A stretch of DNA of 64,000 nucleotides from Bacteroidaceae bacterium (GTDB taxonomy: Bacteria > Bacteroidota > Bacteroidia > Bacteroidales > Bacteroidaceae). Shown in pieces: positions 7,762 through 52,471 of this stretch. Where the stretch lies: positions 62,001 to 126,000 of the forward strand of contig JAFTVE010000030.1 of assembly GCA_017465905.1 (NCBI GenBank), written 5' to 3'. Position 1 is the stretch's first letter. Each line of letters starts with the position of its first letter. The position numbers and the translations under genes were made by a program. The notes beneath the pieces were generated by a model. That model worked only from the letters and a program-made list of their open reading frames with translations. It was not told the origin of the DNA and made no database searches.

Positions 7762-7802
7762 AATTGTCCCTGGCTCCATCTCGAGTCGGGGACAGTTTTT
7801 TA
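7762..7802 (+). terminator. Rho-independent terminator after the calycin gene
   Basis: A hairpin with arms ATTGTCCC and GGGGACAGT is followed by a run of six T, 27 bases after the stop codon. Confidence 0.8.
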
Positions 7803-7865
7803 AGAGGTTGATAGATCTCATTGAAAATTTTGCGCCGAAGTTAGTGATTTTTTTCAAAAACACCT

Positions 7866-7873
7866 TATATTTG
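7866..7873 (+). promoter_or_regulatory. -7 box (TATATTTG) of gdhA
   Basis: TATATTTG followed by GCATAC lies 60 bases before the gdhA ATG. The upstream TTTG element is not in the usual place, so the promoter may need an activator. Confidence 0.5.
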
Positions 7874-7932
7874 CATACAAAATGCGAACGAATCGCGTTT
7901 ATACATTGTAATAACTAATAAAACGCAGTGTT

Positions 7933-9270
7933 ATGAAGATTCAAGAAATCATTCAGGATCTTGAGCGCAAGCACCCGAACGAGCCCGAGTATATTCAGGC
8001 TGTGACCGAAGTGCTGCACTCTGTTGAGGAGGTTTATTACCAGCACCCCGAGTTTGAAAAAGCAAAGATTATTGAGCGCATGGTAGAGCCCGATCGCATC
8101 CTTACTTTCCGCGTCACATGGGTTGACGACAAAGGTGAGGTGCAGACTAACCTCGGCTATCGTGTGCAATACAACAACGCTATAGGCCCCTACAAGGGAG
8201 GTCTCCGTTTCCACGCATCAGTGAACCTGAGCATCCTGAAGTTCCTCGGCTTCGAGCAGACCTTCAAGAATGCCCTCACATCGCTCCCCATGGGTGGCGG
8301 TAAGGGAGGTTCGGACTTCTCGCCCCGTGGCAAGAGCCAGAATGAGATTATGCGCTTCTGCCAGGCCTACATGACGGAGTTGTGGCACAACCTTGGCCCC
8401 GACACCGACGTGCCTGCCGGCGACATTGGCGTAGGTGGACGTGAAGTGGGCTACCTCATGGGCATGTACAAGAAGCTCACCCGCGAGTGTACCGGTGTGA
8501 TGACGGGTAAGGGCCTCGACTTCGGCGGCTCACTCATCCGTCCCGAGGCTACCGGCTATGGTGGTCTCTACTTCGTGAACCAGATGCTCGCTACCCGCGG
8601 CCTCGACATCAGTGGCAAGACCGTTGCCATCAGCGGATTCGGTAACGTGGCATGGGGCGCTGCCCTCAAGGCTACCGAGCTGGGTGCCAAGGTGGTGACC
8701 ATCAGTGGCCCCGACGGCTACGTGTACGACCCCGACGGCATCAGTGGCGAGAAAATTGACTACATGCTCGAACTGCGCGACTCGGGCGACGACATCGTGG
8801 AACCCTATGCAGAGAAATACCCCTCGGCAACCTTCTATCCCGGTCGCCGTCCTTGGGAGCAGAAGGTAGACATCTGTCTCTGCTGCGCTACACAGAACGA
8901 ACTCGATGGCGAGGATGCCCAGCGCATCATCGACAACGGTGTCATCTGCGTAGGCGAAATCTCCAACATGGGATGTACCCCCGAGGCTATCGAACTCTTC
9001 ATCGAGCACAAGATGCTCTATGCACCTGGTAAGGCAGTAAATGCAGGTGGTGTAGCAACTAGCGGACTCGAGATGAGCCAGAACGCTTGCCACATCTCTT
9101 GGAGCGCTGCCGAGGTGGACAAGAAGTTGCAATACATCATGTACTCCATCCACGAGCAGTGCGTGAAGTATGGTCGCCAGCCCGACGGATACATCAACTA
9201 CGTCAAGGGTGCCAACATCTCAGGCTTCATGAAGGTGGCCAACGCCATGCTGGCACAGGGTATCTATTAA
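7933..9270 (+). CDS. gdhA: Glutamate dehydrogenase, hexameric class I
   Basis: The 445-residue enzyme catalyses reversible reductive amination of 2-oxoglutarate with ammonium, the main nitrogen assimilation route in gut Bacteroidales. The glutamate-binding and catalytic segment is intact (YKGGLRFHASVN at 87-98; PMGGGKGGSDF with Lys124), followed by DVPAGDIGVGGREVGY and the Rossmann segment around GFGNVAWGAA (about 236-245). Length equals the class I NADP-type family. The gene stands alone between a promoter box and a terminator. Cofactor preference (NADP or NAD) is not settled by eye. Confidence 0.96.
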   Translation: MKIQEIIQDLERKHPNEPEYIQAVTEVLHSVEEVYYQHPEFEKAKIIERMVEPDRILTFRVTWVDDKGEVQTNLGYRVQYNNAIGPYKGGLRFHASVNLSILKFLGFEQTFKNALTSLPMGGGKGGSDFSPRGKSQNEIMRFCQAYMTELWHNLGPDTDVPAGDIGVGGREVGYLMGMYKKLTRECTGVMTGKGLDFGGSLIRPEATGYGGLYFVNQMLATRGLDISGKTVAISGFGNVAWGAALKATELGAKVVTISGPDGYVYDPDGISGEKIDYMLELRDSGDDIVEPYAEKYPSATFYPGRRPWEQKVDICLCCATQNELDGEDAQRIIDNGVICVGEISNMGCTPEAIELFIEHKMLYAPGKAVNAGGVATSGLEMSQNACHISWSAAEVDKKLQYIMYSIHEQCVKYGRQPDGYINYVKGANISGFMKVANAMLAQGIY

Positions 9271-48194: not shown

Positions 48195-48250
48195 TTTTAG
48201 TTGGACGATTACGGAGAAACGTTTTCCTTTGTCGCAGAAATCAACTAAAA
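48195..48250. promoter_or_regulatory. 9-bp inverted repeat upstream of blaI-type gene
   Basis: TTTTAGTTG (48195-48203) and CAACTAAAA (48242-48250) are exact complements flanking TTCCTTTG (48224-48231), a -7-like box. Possible BlaI operator halves; they do not match the classic TACA/TGTA site. Confidence 0.35.
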
Positions 48251-48261
48251 CTTTAAGAGAT

Positions 48262-48630
48262 ATGAAACGTACGAACGAACTGACCCGTGCCGAACTGCAA
48301 GTGATGAATATCCTGTGGGATATGGGGAAGGGCACGGTGAGCGAGATACTGGAGAAGTTTCCCGAGCCCCAGCCAGCCTACAATACGGTGCTCACCTTCC
48401 TGCGCATACTGAAGGAGAAGAAGTTCGTGGCCAGCGAACCCATAGGCAAGCAGCACCGCTTCTATCCGCTGGTGCAGCACGGCGAGTACACCCGCAACTA
48501 CATGCGAAGCGTCAAGGACAACCTCTTCCGTGGCTCGGCTGCCAGCCTCGTCAACTTCTTCGTCAAGGAGGAGAACCTCTCGGCTGAGGAAATAGAGGAG
48601 TTGATAGCGTTGCTGAGAAAGAACGAATAA
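48262..48630 (+). CDS. BlaI/MecI/CopY family repressor
   Basis: The 122-residue winged-helix protein (LTRAELQVMNILWDMGKGTV, then AYNTVLTFLRILKEKKFV) matches the penicillinase-repressor family, including the C-terminal dimer helices (VNFFVKEENLSAEEIEELI). These repressors are cleaved when the M56 membrane partner, encoded 93 bases downstream, senses a signal. In Bacteroidales the pair usually regulates itself and envelope functions and not beta-lactamase. The start is the ATG at 48262, after the inverted repeat. Confidence 0.93.
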   Translation: MKRTNELTRAELQVMNILWDMGKGTVSEILEKFPEPQPAYNTVLTFLRILKEKKFVASEPIGKQHRFYPLVQHGEYTRNYMRSVKDNLFRGSAASLVNFFVKEENLSAEEIEELIALLRKNE

Positions 48631-48723: not shown

Positions 48724-50715
48724 ATGATTGCATTCTTATCCTATATCCTAAAAGTCTCGCTCAGCCTGGCGGCATTCTATATGTTCTACAAGCTGCTGTG
48801 CAGTCGCGACACGCTGCATCGGTTCAACCGCTGCTTGCTGCTGTTCATCCTGGCTCTCTCGGCCGTGGTGCCCTTCATGTATATCGACCTTGGCATCATC
48901 AGCCACGAGGCTGCTGTGGAGATTGGCGAGCTGGGCGCTGCGCTTGAGGCGGAGCCTGTGGAAATGATAGCGATGGAAGATGCTCCTGTATCGCTGTGGC
49001 AGCGCGTGCCTTGGCAACAGATACCGTGGCGAATGATACTGGGTGGCATCTACTGTGCCGGTCTCCTCGCGTGTCTGGCCCATTTCGTAGGTTCGCTCCT
49101 CTCCATCGCCCTGCTCATACGCCGAAGCAAACGCCGCGTGATGGTCGATGGCACCATCCTCGTCACTCATAACAAGGCATACGGACCCTTCTCGTGGATG
49201 CGCTACATCATCGTCTCGGAGCAGGACCTCAGCGACAACTTCGATATGATACTCGCTCATGAGCGTGCCCATATACGCCTACACCATTCGTGGGACCTGC
49301 TCTTCGTACAGCTCTGTGCCACGGCGCAGTGGTTCAACCCCGCAGCCTGGCTTCTCAAGCGCGAACTCGAAGCCATCCACGAATTTGAGGCCGACAGCGA
49401 CACCCTGCGCCAAGGATTCGATGCCCGCCAATACCAGCTACGCCTTTTCGAGGAGGCCGTGGGCGTGAAGTTCAATACGATCACTAATAATTTCAACAAT
49501 TGTTCCACTAAAAAACGTATTATTATGATGATGAAAAGACAAACCAGTCCGTGGGCACGGATGAAAGCTCTGTTCGTGCTCCCAGTAGCCTTCGTGGCGG
49601 TAGCCGTAATCTCCTGCACTTCGCCGAAGGAGCAGGGTCCCTATCCTGTAAGAATAGGGAAGAACGACGTGAAACATTACGATATCAGCGACTTTGGCAA
49701 GTATCCCGAAGTCAAGATTATCTGCGAGCGAGATGGTCTGATGGGTAGCCAAAGTTATAGTGCATCAAAGGCCGGCGCAGAAATAGCTCAGGGAATAGCT
49801 GATTTCTTGAAAGGGGAAGGGAGAGATGAATTTTTGGCAAACTTTAATCTGACTGAAGCCGACATTGATTCCGTACGGATGTTCTTCCCCGGAGAGTCAG
49901 ACCTTTGTGGCAATATTGGTAACAATGGAGTAATGGCGATTTATGTGTCATCGCGTGCCATCAGACAACTTCAAAAGAGCTCTGAAGAAGCAACTGCAGT
50001 GGCCTACAAGAACGACAAACCTGCCGAAGAGGGCGAAATCTTCCAAGTCGTAGAAGAACAACCCATGTTCCCCGGAGGTATGCAGGAAATGATGAAATTC
50101 TTGCAGCAGAATATCAAGTACCCGAAGGAGGCTCAGGAGCAGGGCAAGCAGGGCCGTGTCATCGTGCAGTTCGTAGTAAACAAGGATGGTAGTATCAGCA
50201 ACGACTCTGTCGTTCGCTCCGTAGATCCCTTGCTCGATGCCGAGGCATTGCGCGTAGTGTGTAGTATGCCCAACTGGACGCCTGGCAAGCAGCGCGGTAA
50301 GGAGGTACGAGTGCGCTTCACACTACCCGTATCATTCCGCTTGGATGGTGGCACCGATAATCCCGTCATGATACAGGCCACAGTAGAGAAATCTGGCGAC
50401 GAAATCTTCCAAGTCGTAGAGGACCAACCCGAGTTCCCAGGCGGCATGGAAGCCTTGATGAAACATCTGAGCAAGGAAATCAAGTACCCCAAGGAAGCGC
50501 AGGAAAAAGGTACACAGGGGCGTGTAATCGTGCAGTTTGTTGTGAGAAAGGATGGTAGCATCACCGACGCCAAGATAATGAAGCCCGTAGACCCACTGCT
50601 CGATGCCGAGGCGCTGCGCGTAGTGAGCGAAATGCCCAACTGGACTCCCGGCAAGCAGAGAGGCGAGGCCGTCAACGTGCGCTTCACCCTTCCCGTAACG
50701 TTCAGATTGAAATAA
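48724..50715 (+). CDS. M56 (BlaR1-like) membrane metallopeptidase with two TonB C-terminal domains
   Basis: The 663-residue protein has three or four helices (about 3-22, 36-54, 105-132) and a cytoplasmic M56 peptidase with zinc site HERAH (179-183) and EADSD further on. A further helix follows (about 285-302). The exported C-terminus carries two near-identical TonB C-terminal domains (about 440-545 and 560-662), each with FPGGMxxxMxx, IKYPKEAQE and GRVIVQFVVxKDGS. Paired with BlaI, it is probably a sensor-protease; TonB domains could bind receptors or peptidoglycan-linked partners. The duplication is unusual in its similarity and may be recent. Confidence 0.92.
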   Translation: MIAFLSYILKVSLSLAAFYMFYKLLCSRDTLHRFNRCLLLFILALSAVVPFMYIDLGIISHEAAVEIGELGAALEAEPVEMIAMEDAPVSLWQRVPWQQIPWRMILGGIYCAGLLACLAHFVGSLLSIALLIRRSKRRVMVDGTILVTHNKAYGPFSWMRYIIVSEQDLSDNFDMILAHERAHIRLHHSWDLLFVQLCATAQWFNPAAWLLKRELEAIHEFEADSDTLRQGFDARQYQLRLFEEAVGVKFNTITNNFNNCSTKKRIIMMMKRQTSPWARMKALFVLPVAFVAVAVISCTSPKEQGPYPVRIGKNDVKHYDISDFGKYPEVKIICERDGLMGSQSYSASKAGAEIAQGIADFLKGEGRDEFLANFNLTEADIDSVRMFFPGESDLCGNIGNNGVMAIYVSSRAIRQLQKSSEEATAVAYKNDKPAEEGEIFQVVEEQPMFPGGMQEMMKFLQQNIKYPKEAQEQGKQGRVIVQFVVNKDGSISNDSVVRSVDPLLDAEALRVVCSMPNWTPGKQRGKEVRVRFTLPVSFRLDGGTDNPVMIQATVEKSGDEIFQVVEDQPEFPGGMEALMKHLSKEIKYPKEAQEKGTQGRVIVQFVVRKDGSITDAKIMKPVDPLLDAEALRVVSEMPNWTPGKQRGEAVNVRFTLPVTFRLK

Positions 50716-51034: not shown

Positions 51035-51066
51035 CTTGTTGGGATTGATGATTTTAGTTATTTTTG
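51035..51066 (+). promoter_or_regulatory. Promoter of the channel-Nudix gene
   Basis: CTTG (51035-51038), 20-base spacer, TATTTTTG (51059-51066), 43 bases before the ATG. Confidence 0.55.
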
Positions 51067-51109: not shown

Positions 51110-52471
51110 ATGAGACTCCTGAGCAATATCAAAGCTGCATGGCGCAAGCTGATGCACAACGAGCAATTAAAAAAGAAACTCTATACCATCATCTTCGAGA
51201 GCGATACCCCGATGGGCAAACTTTTCGATGTGGTGCTGATGGTGTGTATCCTACTTAGTATCTTCATTGTCATAGCCGAGAGCATCCAAGAGTGGCAACC
51301 CTATGTTGGTCCTTATCTGCGTGTGTTGGAGTATGTGTTCACTATCATCTTCACTGCCGAATACCTGCTGCGTCTCTACTGTGCACCGCGGGCAAGGGAC
51401 TATGCCTTCAGCTTCTTCGGTATCATAGACTTGTTGGCTACGTTGCCCCTCTACATCACCTGGATATTCGGTTCGGCACGCTACCTGCTTGTCCTGCGCA
51501 CCTTCCGCCTCATCCGCGTGTTCCGTGTGTTCAAGCTGTTCAACTTCCTCACCGAAGGGCACCTGCTGCTGCGGTCGCTCTATATGAGCAGCCGCAAGAT
51601 AGGCGTATTCTTCCTCTTCATTGTCATCCTTGTCATTGCTATCGGTACACTGATGTATATGATTGAAGGGCAACGCCCTGGCACTCAGTTTAACAACATC
51701 CCCAACAGCATCTACTGGGCCGTAGTGACGATGACTACCGTAGGCTACGGCGACATTACTCCCGAGACACCCCTGGGACGTTTCCTTTCCGTGGTGGTCA
51801 TGCTCATCGGATACACCGTCATTGCCGTACCTACAGGTATCGTCTCCGCTTCGATGATGCAGAGCAGCCGCGATGCACATAAGGAAGATGACGACGATGA
51901 TGACGCGTTAAAAGACTCATCGGACAATGGAGCCGACCGCAAATGGGAGACCATAGACAGCCGCTACATCATAGAACGGCCCTGGCTGACTGCCCGATGC
52001 GACCATGTGAAACTGCCCACCGGTGCCGAGATTCCCGAATACTATGTGTTGGAATATCCCGATTGGGTGAACGTGATAGCCCTGACCAAGGAGGGCAAGT
52101 TCGTCATGGTGCGCCAATACCGTCACGGATTGCAGGAGACACGCTACGAGCTTTGTGCCGGAGTGTGTGAGGAGGGTGAAGACCCGATGGAGGCCGCCAA
52201 GCGCGAACTGTATGAGGAGACGGGCTATACAGGCGGACAATGGAAACTGTGGATGACCGTTAGCGCCAACGCCAGTACCATGACCAACCTTACCCATTGC
52301 TATCTGGCCACAGGCGTGGAGCGCATCACCGGGCAACACCTCGAGGACACCGAGGACCTGAGCGTGCACCTGCTCACCAAGAAAGAGGTGAAGCGACTGC
52401 TACAAACAGATGAGGTGCGCCAATCATTGATGGCGGCACCGCTATGGAAATATTTTGCCAAACATTATTGA
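51110..52471 (+). CDS. Voltage-gated-type potassium channel fused to a Nudix hydrolase
   Basis: One uninterrupted 453-residue frame. Residues 1-255 are a six-helix ion channel: S4 with regularly spaced basic residues (Arg130, 133, 136, 139, Lys142), pore helix and potassium filter TTVGYGD (209-215), then S6. A strongly acidic linker (KEDDDDDDALKD, 258-269) leads to a complete Nudix domain (about 285-450) with the box G-x5-E-x7-REL-x-EE-x-G-Y at 351-373, preceded by YELCAG as in ADP-ribose pyrophosphatases. Human TRPM2 likewise joins a channel to a NUDT9-like domain. Gating by ADP-ribose or turnover of such a nucleotide is inference. Confidence 0.92.
   Translation: MRLLSNIKAAWRKLMHNEQLKKKLYTIIFESDTPMGKLFDVVLMVCILLSIFIVIAESIQEWQPYVGPYLRVLEYVFTIIFTAEYLLRLYCAPRARDYAFSFFGIIDLLATLPLYITWIFGSARYLLVLRTFRLIRVFRVFKLFNFLTEGHLLLRSLYMSSRKIGVFFLFIVILVIAIGTLMYMIEGQRPGTQFNNIPNSIYWAVVTMTTVGYGDITPETPLGRFLSVVVMLIGYTVIAVPTGIVSASMMQSSRDAHKEDDDDDDALKDSSDNGADRKWETIDSRYIIERPWLTARCDHVKLPTGAEIPEYYVLEYPDWVNVIALTKEGKFVMVRQYRHGLQETRYELCAGVCEEGEDPMEAAKRELYEETGYTGGQWKLWMTVSANASTMTNLTHCYLATGVERITGQHLEDTEDLSVHLLTKKEVKRLLQTDEVRQSLMAAPLWKYFAKHY

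Follow-up and report, generated by a model that had tools for sequence, protein, structure and literature searches.

A voltage-gated-type K+ channel and a complete Nudix hydrolase are encoded together, in one frame, as a protein of 453 residues in a Bacteroidaceae bacterium, and comparison with other genomes points to a channel-Nudix fusion conserved within a narrow set of related gut species. The gene lies in the window, the whole stretch of 64,000 nucleotides that was analysed, and has the following features, all on the forward (+) strand:

51036..51066, +: candidate promoter of its own, TTG, 20 bases, TATTTTTG; a direct reading of the letters
51110..52471, +: gene of the channel-Nudix fusion (453 aa), from the ATG at 51110 to the last base of the stop at 52471
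51218..51862, +: Ion_trans domain of a six-helix Kv-type K+ channel, residues 37-251 (Pfam E 1.7e-38)
51497..51535, +: S4-like segment R130-K142, RTFRLIRVFRVFK; five basic residues, one per three positions
51737..51754, +: selectivity filter TVGYGD, T210-D215; identical in 9/9 fusions
51857..51940, +: linker of 28 aa, residues 250-277; acidic in the window lineage only
51941..52468, +: Nudix domain (residues 278-453), with NudF/ADP-ribose pyrophosphatases as nearest relatives
52160..52228, +: intact Nudix box, G351-Y373; fits GX5EX7REUXEEXGU
52262..52288, +: X-loop after the box, S385-N393, SANASTMTN; the ADPRase proline position is Ala388

The first-pass annotation had described a K+ channel and a Nudix domain in a single frame, with an S4-like segment, a TVGYGD filter and an intact Nudix box at G351-Y373, and the ORF, Pfam and motif reading bore out its coordinates, frame and motifs exactly. 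Ion_trans scored 132.7 bits in the fusion protein against a cut-off of 25, and NUDIX matched residues 320-427 (E 4.4e-13), so that both domains exceed their curated Pfam cut-offs. The channel half combines the sequence features of the Kv superfamily, namely Ion_trans, spaced S4 charges and a T-V/I-G-Y-G filter, and an arginine or lysine stands at each third S4 residue in 9/9 fusions. Its best solved relatives are voltage-gated K+ channels (KvAP, Kv1 and Kv2); these share the plan of voltage sensor and pore with the fusion and, to our knowledge, carry no C-terminal Nudix enzyme. The strict box pattern was found in 7/7 aligned fusions and in 23/29 separate relatives, and in two further loci (L060 and L061) the box is intact by eye. 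The candidate promoter, whose letters presumably represent the Bacteroides-type motif, is kept in the same two loci; farther upstream, L061 diverges.

To establish where the fusion occurs, several sets of genomes were searched. Nine distinct genomes carry the open frame, with no stop inside it: the window's own and two near-identical ones of its genus, and six others at 69-74% identity. Full-length fusions at 99-100% were present in G000, G013 and G007 (3/61 genomes, the window's own and relatives). A scan of named genomes gave 20 loci, of which four were full-length fusions: RGIG8693 from water deer and RGIG6335 from sheep, which are the same records as G013 and G007 and were counted once, and two 'uncultured Mediterranea sp.' MAGs (72% and 69%). 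The search of 99 genomes around G423 added four fusions at 69-73% (G861, G856, G837 and G859) to that of G423, five in all. Among the matches listed, wider searches contained at least 3/399 fusions in family genomes, at least 1/393 in order genomes, at least 1/395 in phylum genomes and at least 3/81 in genomes around G856; these four counts come from E-value limits of 1e-10 to 1e-100 and partly from best-ranked matches, under which close fusions would rank at the top and a distant, independent channel-Nudix fusion could escape. The nine open fusions and the low counts in the family, order and phylum searches indicate a narrow but conserved group. Two outcomes that would have counted against the first-pass annotation, homologues that are always split and a stop or frameshift between the domains, thus both failed to appear in the nine genomes. 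An apparent distant fusion in a reindeer MAG (L073), where a tblastn match spans residues 21-426, was rejected: the channel ends with a zinc ribbon and the Nudix gene lies on another contig. Searches of plasmids and phages gave 136 and 31 records with a match, respectively, and in none did one place cover 80% of the query. One phage record (MT837403.1, 835-1377; 6950 bases, 'Bacteriophage sp.', human faeces) holds a 57% relative of the Nudix half.

The two halves have not drifted freely. In the codon comparison of the window with L061, the channel differs by 12 synonymous changes and a single non-synonymous one, the Nudix part by 12 synonymous and 7 non-synonymous changes, and the linker is unchanged; against L062, dN was 0.16 for the channel and 0.22 for the Nudix part, with dS above 1. 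In each pairing of the window with one of the six distant fusions, some 190-245 synonymous changes have left the frame open. Because dN is low despite synonymous saturation, the codon comparison indicates that channel and Nudix halves are both constrained, with the frame kept. The linker behaves differently between lineages, in that its sequence shows no conservation among the fusions; between the window and the six distant fusions dN was at least 1 and dS at least 1 or saturated, a crude estimate from 21 window residues in an uncertain alignment. Its length is 25-28 aa in 8/9 fusions and 37 aa in the ninth. The description of this segment as acidic held for the window lineage, to which a run of six aspartates is confined, and not for the six distant fusions, whose linkers are basic or mixed. 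By sequence, then, the linker looks like a spacer. Two methionines, M249 and M250, stand at its beginning, and more start candidates are present in L063, L095 and L097, so a start at M249/M250 could in principle yield a Nudix-only product; after residue 250 and before the Nudix domain, the window contains no in-frame ATG, GTG or TTG.

We compared the Nudix part with solved structures and curated models. The nearest structures (8zr8 at E 1e-18 with the single sequence; 8wv3 and 5c7q at about 1e-28 with a profile) bear the labels methanol dehydrogenase activator, ADP-ribose pyrophosphatase or NudF, and more ADP-ribose pyrophosphatases come after them. These relatives (8wv3, 9jax, 8zr8 and NudF 5c7q) differ from the fusion in having no fused channel. 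NCBIfam scores were far below the cut-offs for TIGR00052 (27.4 vs 79.55 bits), for NF008003, ADP-ribose diphosphatase (18.7 vs 248), and for the NudE model (52.3 bits vs 169). Since the Nudix box is intact, hydrolase activity is likely. The suggestion of an ADP-ribose-type enzyme, as far as it concerns specificity, drew no support from the loop after the box, where a proline marks ADP-ribose diphosphatases (Dunn et al. 1999, as cited in an excerpt of PMC5389931). In alignment, this position is alanine in 7/7 fusions and proline in 14/29 of the separate, single-domain Bacteroidota hydrolases of the same family. The solved chains 8zr8, 8wv3 and 9jax carry the loop proline at the place of Ala388, and their Asp-Glu pair farther along the loop aligns with Thr392-Asn393 of the fusion.

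The only channel-enzymes with a Nudix part known to us are those of TRPM2, and the first-pass annotation had likened the fusion to them. In choanoflagellate srTRPM2 and sea anemone nvTRPM2, as in the fusion, a single chain runs from a six-helix, tetramer-type channel into a Nudix enzyme at the C-terminus with a canonical catalytic box. The two differ in almost everything else. TRPM2 is non-selective and Ca2+-permeable, has a melastatin region at its N-terminus and carries a Nudix domain of the NUDT9 type, whereas the fusion has a K+ filter, no such N-terminal region and a Nudix domain nearest to NudF and ADPRases. Pfam detected no melastatin-type domain in the fusion, where the channel domain begins at residue 37 of 453, and TVGYGD is by its letters a filter of the K+ type, which speaks against a non-selective cation pore. 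No TRPM2 or NUDT9 label occurred among the 47 PDB matches to the Nudix profile at E<=0.001, nor in the best 60 of 158 at E<=10, in a sequence-based comparison where each row is one chain with up to three molecule names. For these reasons the fusion is probably not a TRPM2: TRPM2 looks like a convergent analogue rather than a relative, and the comparison stands as an analogy of plan (channel plus C-terminal Nudix) and falls as kinship, both halves being closest by sequence to other families. We rate the channel-enzyme as a kind already known, found here in a prokaryote and on a K+ pore. Among the matches listed, open-access titles and abstract starts contained no earlier report of a prokaryotic channel-Nudix fusion, a scope that leaves subscription papers and bioRxiv aside.

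Outside the nine fusion genomes, the channel and Nudix families were separate genes in the genomes searched. The separate channel, a Bacteroidota 'ion transporter' of the same Kv-type family (e.g. Phocaeicola vulgatus NC_009614), has ~290 aa, and the Phocaeicola protein is ~75% identical over residues 1-254. At the C-terminus these channels have a CxxC...CxxC zinc ribbon, with no enzyme attached, whereas the fusion has its Nudix domain there. The ribbon was present at the C-terminal end of 72/74 distinct separate channels, which are the best-matching loci fetched rather than a random sample, and in 0/8 distinct fusion channel sequences; Pfam Zn_ribbon_3 fell under its cut-off in both separate channels scanned. 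Judged by these sequences, the Nudix enzyme has replaced the C-terminal zinc ribbon of the channel, which places it where C-terminal modules act. The separate Nudix enzyme is a free protein of ~190 residues, up to 79% identical to the fusion Nudix, and at E<=1e-20 its family was found in 68/201 family genomes, a count that includes three fusions.

The first-pass annotation had offered fusion from an adjacent gene as a possible origin, of which we found no trace. Separate channel and Nudix genes were never side by side in the loci compared, most of them with 1.5 kb flanks, and the nearest pair noticed among the matches listed was ~19 kb apart (G321). In the 94 non-fusion genomes of the G423 circle, a close channel was counted in 28 and a close Nudix gene in 46, of which three were partial; both occurred in 12 genomes against 13.7 expected of the 94 (Fisher p 0.50, one sample). 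As the genes neither adjoin nor co-occur above expectation, no partnership before the fusion is visible in these genomes. Five same-genus MAGs (62-82% complete) carry a 72-76% relative of the Nudix half and no close channel, and the channel half may have been lost in these sister species. Conversely, at the thresholds used, 8/9 fusion genomes showed no match of either family besides the fusion. The exception is G423, with an additional Nudix gene (51%), and a second channel of the family was found in none of the nine at these thresholds. The missing second copies are provisional, because the completeness stated for three of the fusion genomes is 80-87%. In domain trees, the channel half adjoins Phocaeicola and the Nudix half falls among Phocaeicola and same-genus sequences. 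The fusions formed one clade in no domain tree and in 0% of 200 bootstrap trees for either domain, these being built from 28/82 channel rows and 24/46 Nudix rows picked after larger, unfinished quick trees had been seen. The bootstrap thus leans against a single fusion origin, which the AU test did not reject (p 0.126 for the channel, 0.184 for the Nudix part).

What the fusion does was weighed against these observations. The reading we prefer, at somewhat less than an even chance, is a prokaryotic K+ channel-enzyme in which nucleotide binding or hydrolysis modulates the pore. Four subunits would form one tetrameric K+ pore, and the four cytosolic Nudix domains would pair into two dimers under it, as related dimeric enzymes that share active sites do. 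The substrate bound and cleaved by the dimers would be a nucleoside-diphosphate-X compound, whether similar to ADP-ribose or not; occupancy of the dimers would alter the ease with which the S6 gate opens, hydrolysis would end the signal, and dimers beneath a four-fold pore could act as a natural lever. Such coupling is favoured by the position of the enzyme in place of the ribbon, by a linker length kept at 25-28 aa in 8/9 fusions despite drift in its sequence, and by the lack of any other match to either family in 8/9 fusion genomes. The constraint on both halves, the kept S4, filter and Nudix box, and the nearest solved Nudix structures also speak for the reading as a channel-enzyme. There is also a precedent: in the TRPM2 chanzyme of S. 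rosetta, according to an excerpt of PMC11479946, ADP-ribose binding leads to NUDT9-H tetramerisation and favours the open state, and the channel is then closed by slow hydrolysis. In sea anemone TRPM2, an excerpt of PMC6461439 describes an active enzyme whose disruption leaves currents unchanged. This uncoupled catalysis counts against coupling, as do the lack of a prior partnership, the unconserved linker, the five channel-less same-genus MAGs and the possible start at M249/M250. A more specific form, which we consider doubtful, is a K+-selective, self-terminating chanzyme that arose independently of TRPM2 by a swap of ribbon for enzyme: binding by the Nudix pair would open or close the voltage-sensing channel and its own hydrolysis would reset it, so that membrane potential would read a nucleotide such as ADP-ribose.

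Nearly as likely as coupling, because the separate genes neither adjoin nor co-occur above chance, is a passive fusion in which the two activities are independent, a housecleaning Nudix enzyme being tethered to the channel and the join persisting as harmless while each half is needed. It would fit with the lack of linker conservation between lineages, with the wide occurrence of the Nudix family free of a channel in family genomes and with the uncoupled catalysis of nvTRPM2, as far as the excerpt of PMC6461439 goes. It accounts less well for a channel that gave up the ribbon retained by nearly all separate channels, for the nearly constant linker length and for fusion genomes that have, at the thresholds used, no second channel of the family. 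If the two halves are instead coupled, the fusion works like a TRPM2 chanzyme though not a TRPM2. The two TRPM2 studies consulted differ on the link between hydrolysis and gating (PMC11479946, PMC6461439), and a bacterial protein of 453 residues that lacks the N-terminal region would offer a minimal and separate system in which to ask whether a Nudix enzyme can gate a pore. It would also tie membrane potential to nucleotide turnover in gut Bacteroidaceae.

The Nudix domain could also serve mainly in assembly or stability of the channel in the zinc ribbon's stead, with catalysis incidental to the channel. We consider this improbable. The absence of the ribbon from all eight distinct fusion channels and the dimeric state of the related E. 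coli ADPRase, whose two active sites each involve the X-loops of both monomers (excerpt of PMC5389931), would suit such a role; the catalytic residues, however, are kept in 7/7 aligned fusions, against a Nudix box that is vestigial in vertebrate TRPM2 (excerpt of PMC6461439).

Phage defence, raised in the first-pass annotation, found no support in the window. As a defence or stress-suicide effector, the channel would be opened by NAD breakdown products and would depolarise the cell, a role suggested by analogy to ADP-ribose signals and one we hold to be very unlikely. PADLOC gave one weak, generic match among eight window proteins, that of the Nudix part to PDC-S07 (25.9 bits), and none for the other seven; moreover, the separate halves are common in the family, as ordinary cell genes are. 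A Sir2 deacylase gene, whose products are ADP-ribose esters, follows a separate Nudix gene by 24 bases on the same strand in one genome (L158 of G008, 7776-9176). This pairing was rejected as a pattern, as that Sir2 was found only in copies of the G008 locus among the loci compared. Finally, an assembly chimera or sequencing error that joined two genes, to which the metagenomic origin of the four carriers with a readable title might point, is refuted by the multi-genome comparison: nine genomes (the titled four from water deer, sheep and two different sequencing runs), differing gene neighbourhoods, 69-100% identity and a frame kept through all the synonymous changes counted above.

The fusion is located in several different gene neighbourhoods. 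In the window, a BlaI-type regulator of the penicillinase-repressor type (48229-48630) precedes a BlaR1-type M56 peptidase gene with two TonB_C stretches (48724-50715). A BlaI-type repressor and an M56/TonB_C gene also lie upstream of the fusion in L060. In G423, a gene of the NADH pyrophosphatase NudC type precedes the fusion on its strand at a distance of 22 bases (L157, 7772-10022), and a NudC gene lies ~1 kb from the channel on the other strand in one M. massiliensis MAG (L069); the link was discarded as a pattern. A TPR protein overlaps or directly precedes the fusion in G424, G856, G837 and G859 (L154, L155, L156 and L063). It is fast-evolving (24-49% identity between these four loci), and the two copies scanned had no PADLOC match. 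It was not retained as an operon partner: since its family occurs in 173/201 family genomes and on another contig than the fusion in G000, G423 and G861, its position beside the fusion is local. Separate channels also show an unusual context in four loci (L052, L053, L055 and L058, from G199, G225, G345 and G331), where the channel lies within one frame of 1520-1578 codons. In the two inspected, L053 and L055, this frame passes the zinc-ribbon motif of the channel into an F5/8-type and CotH kinase protein, which points either to the loss of a stop codon or to another channel fusion, unrelated to the first.
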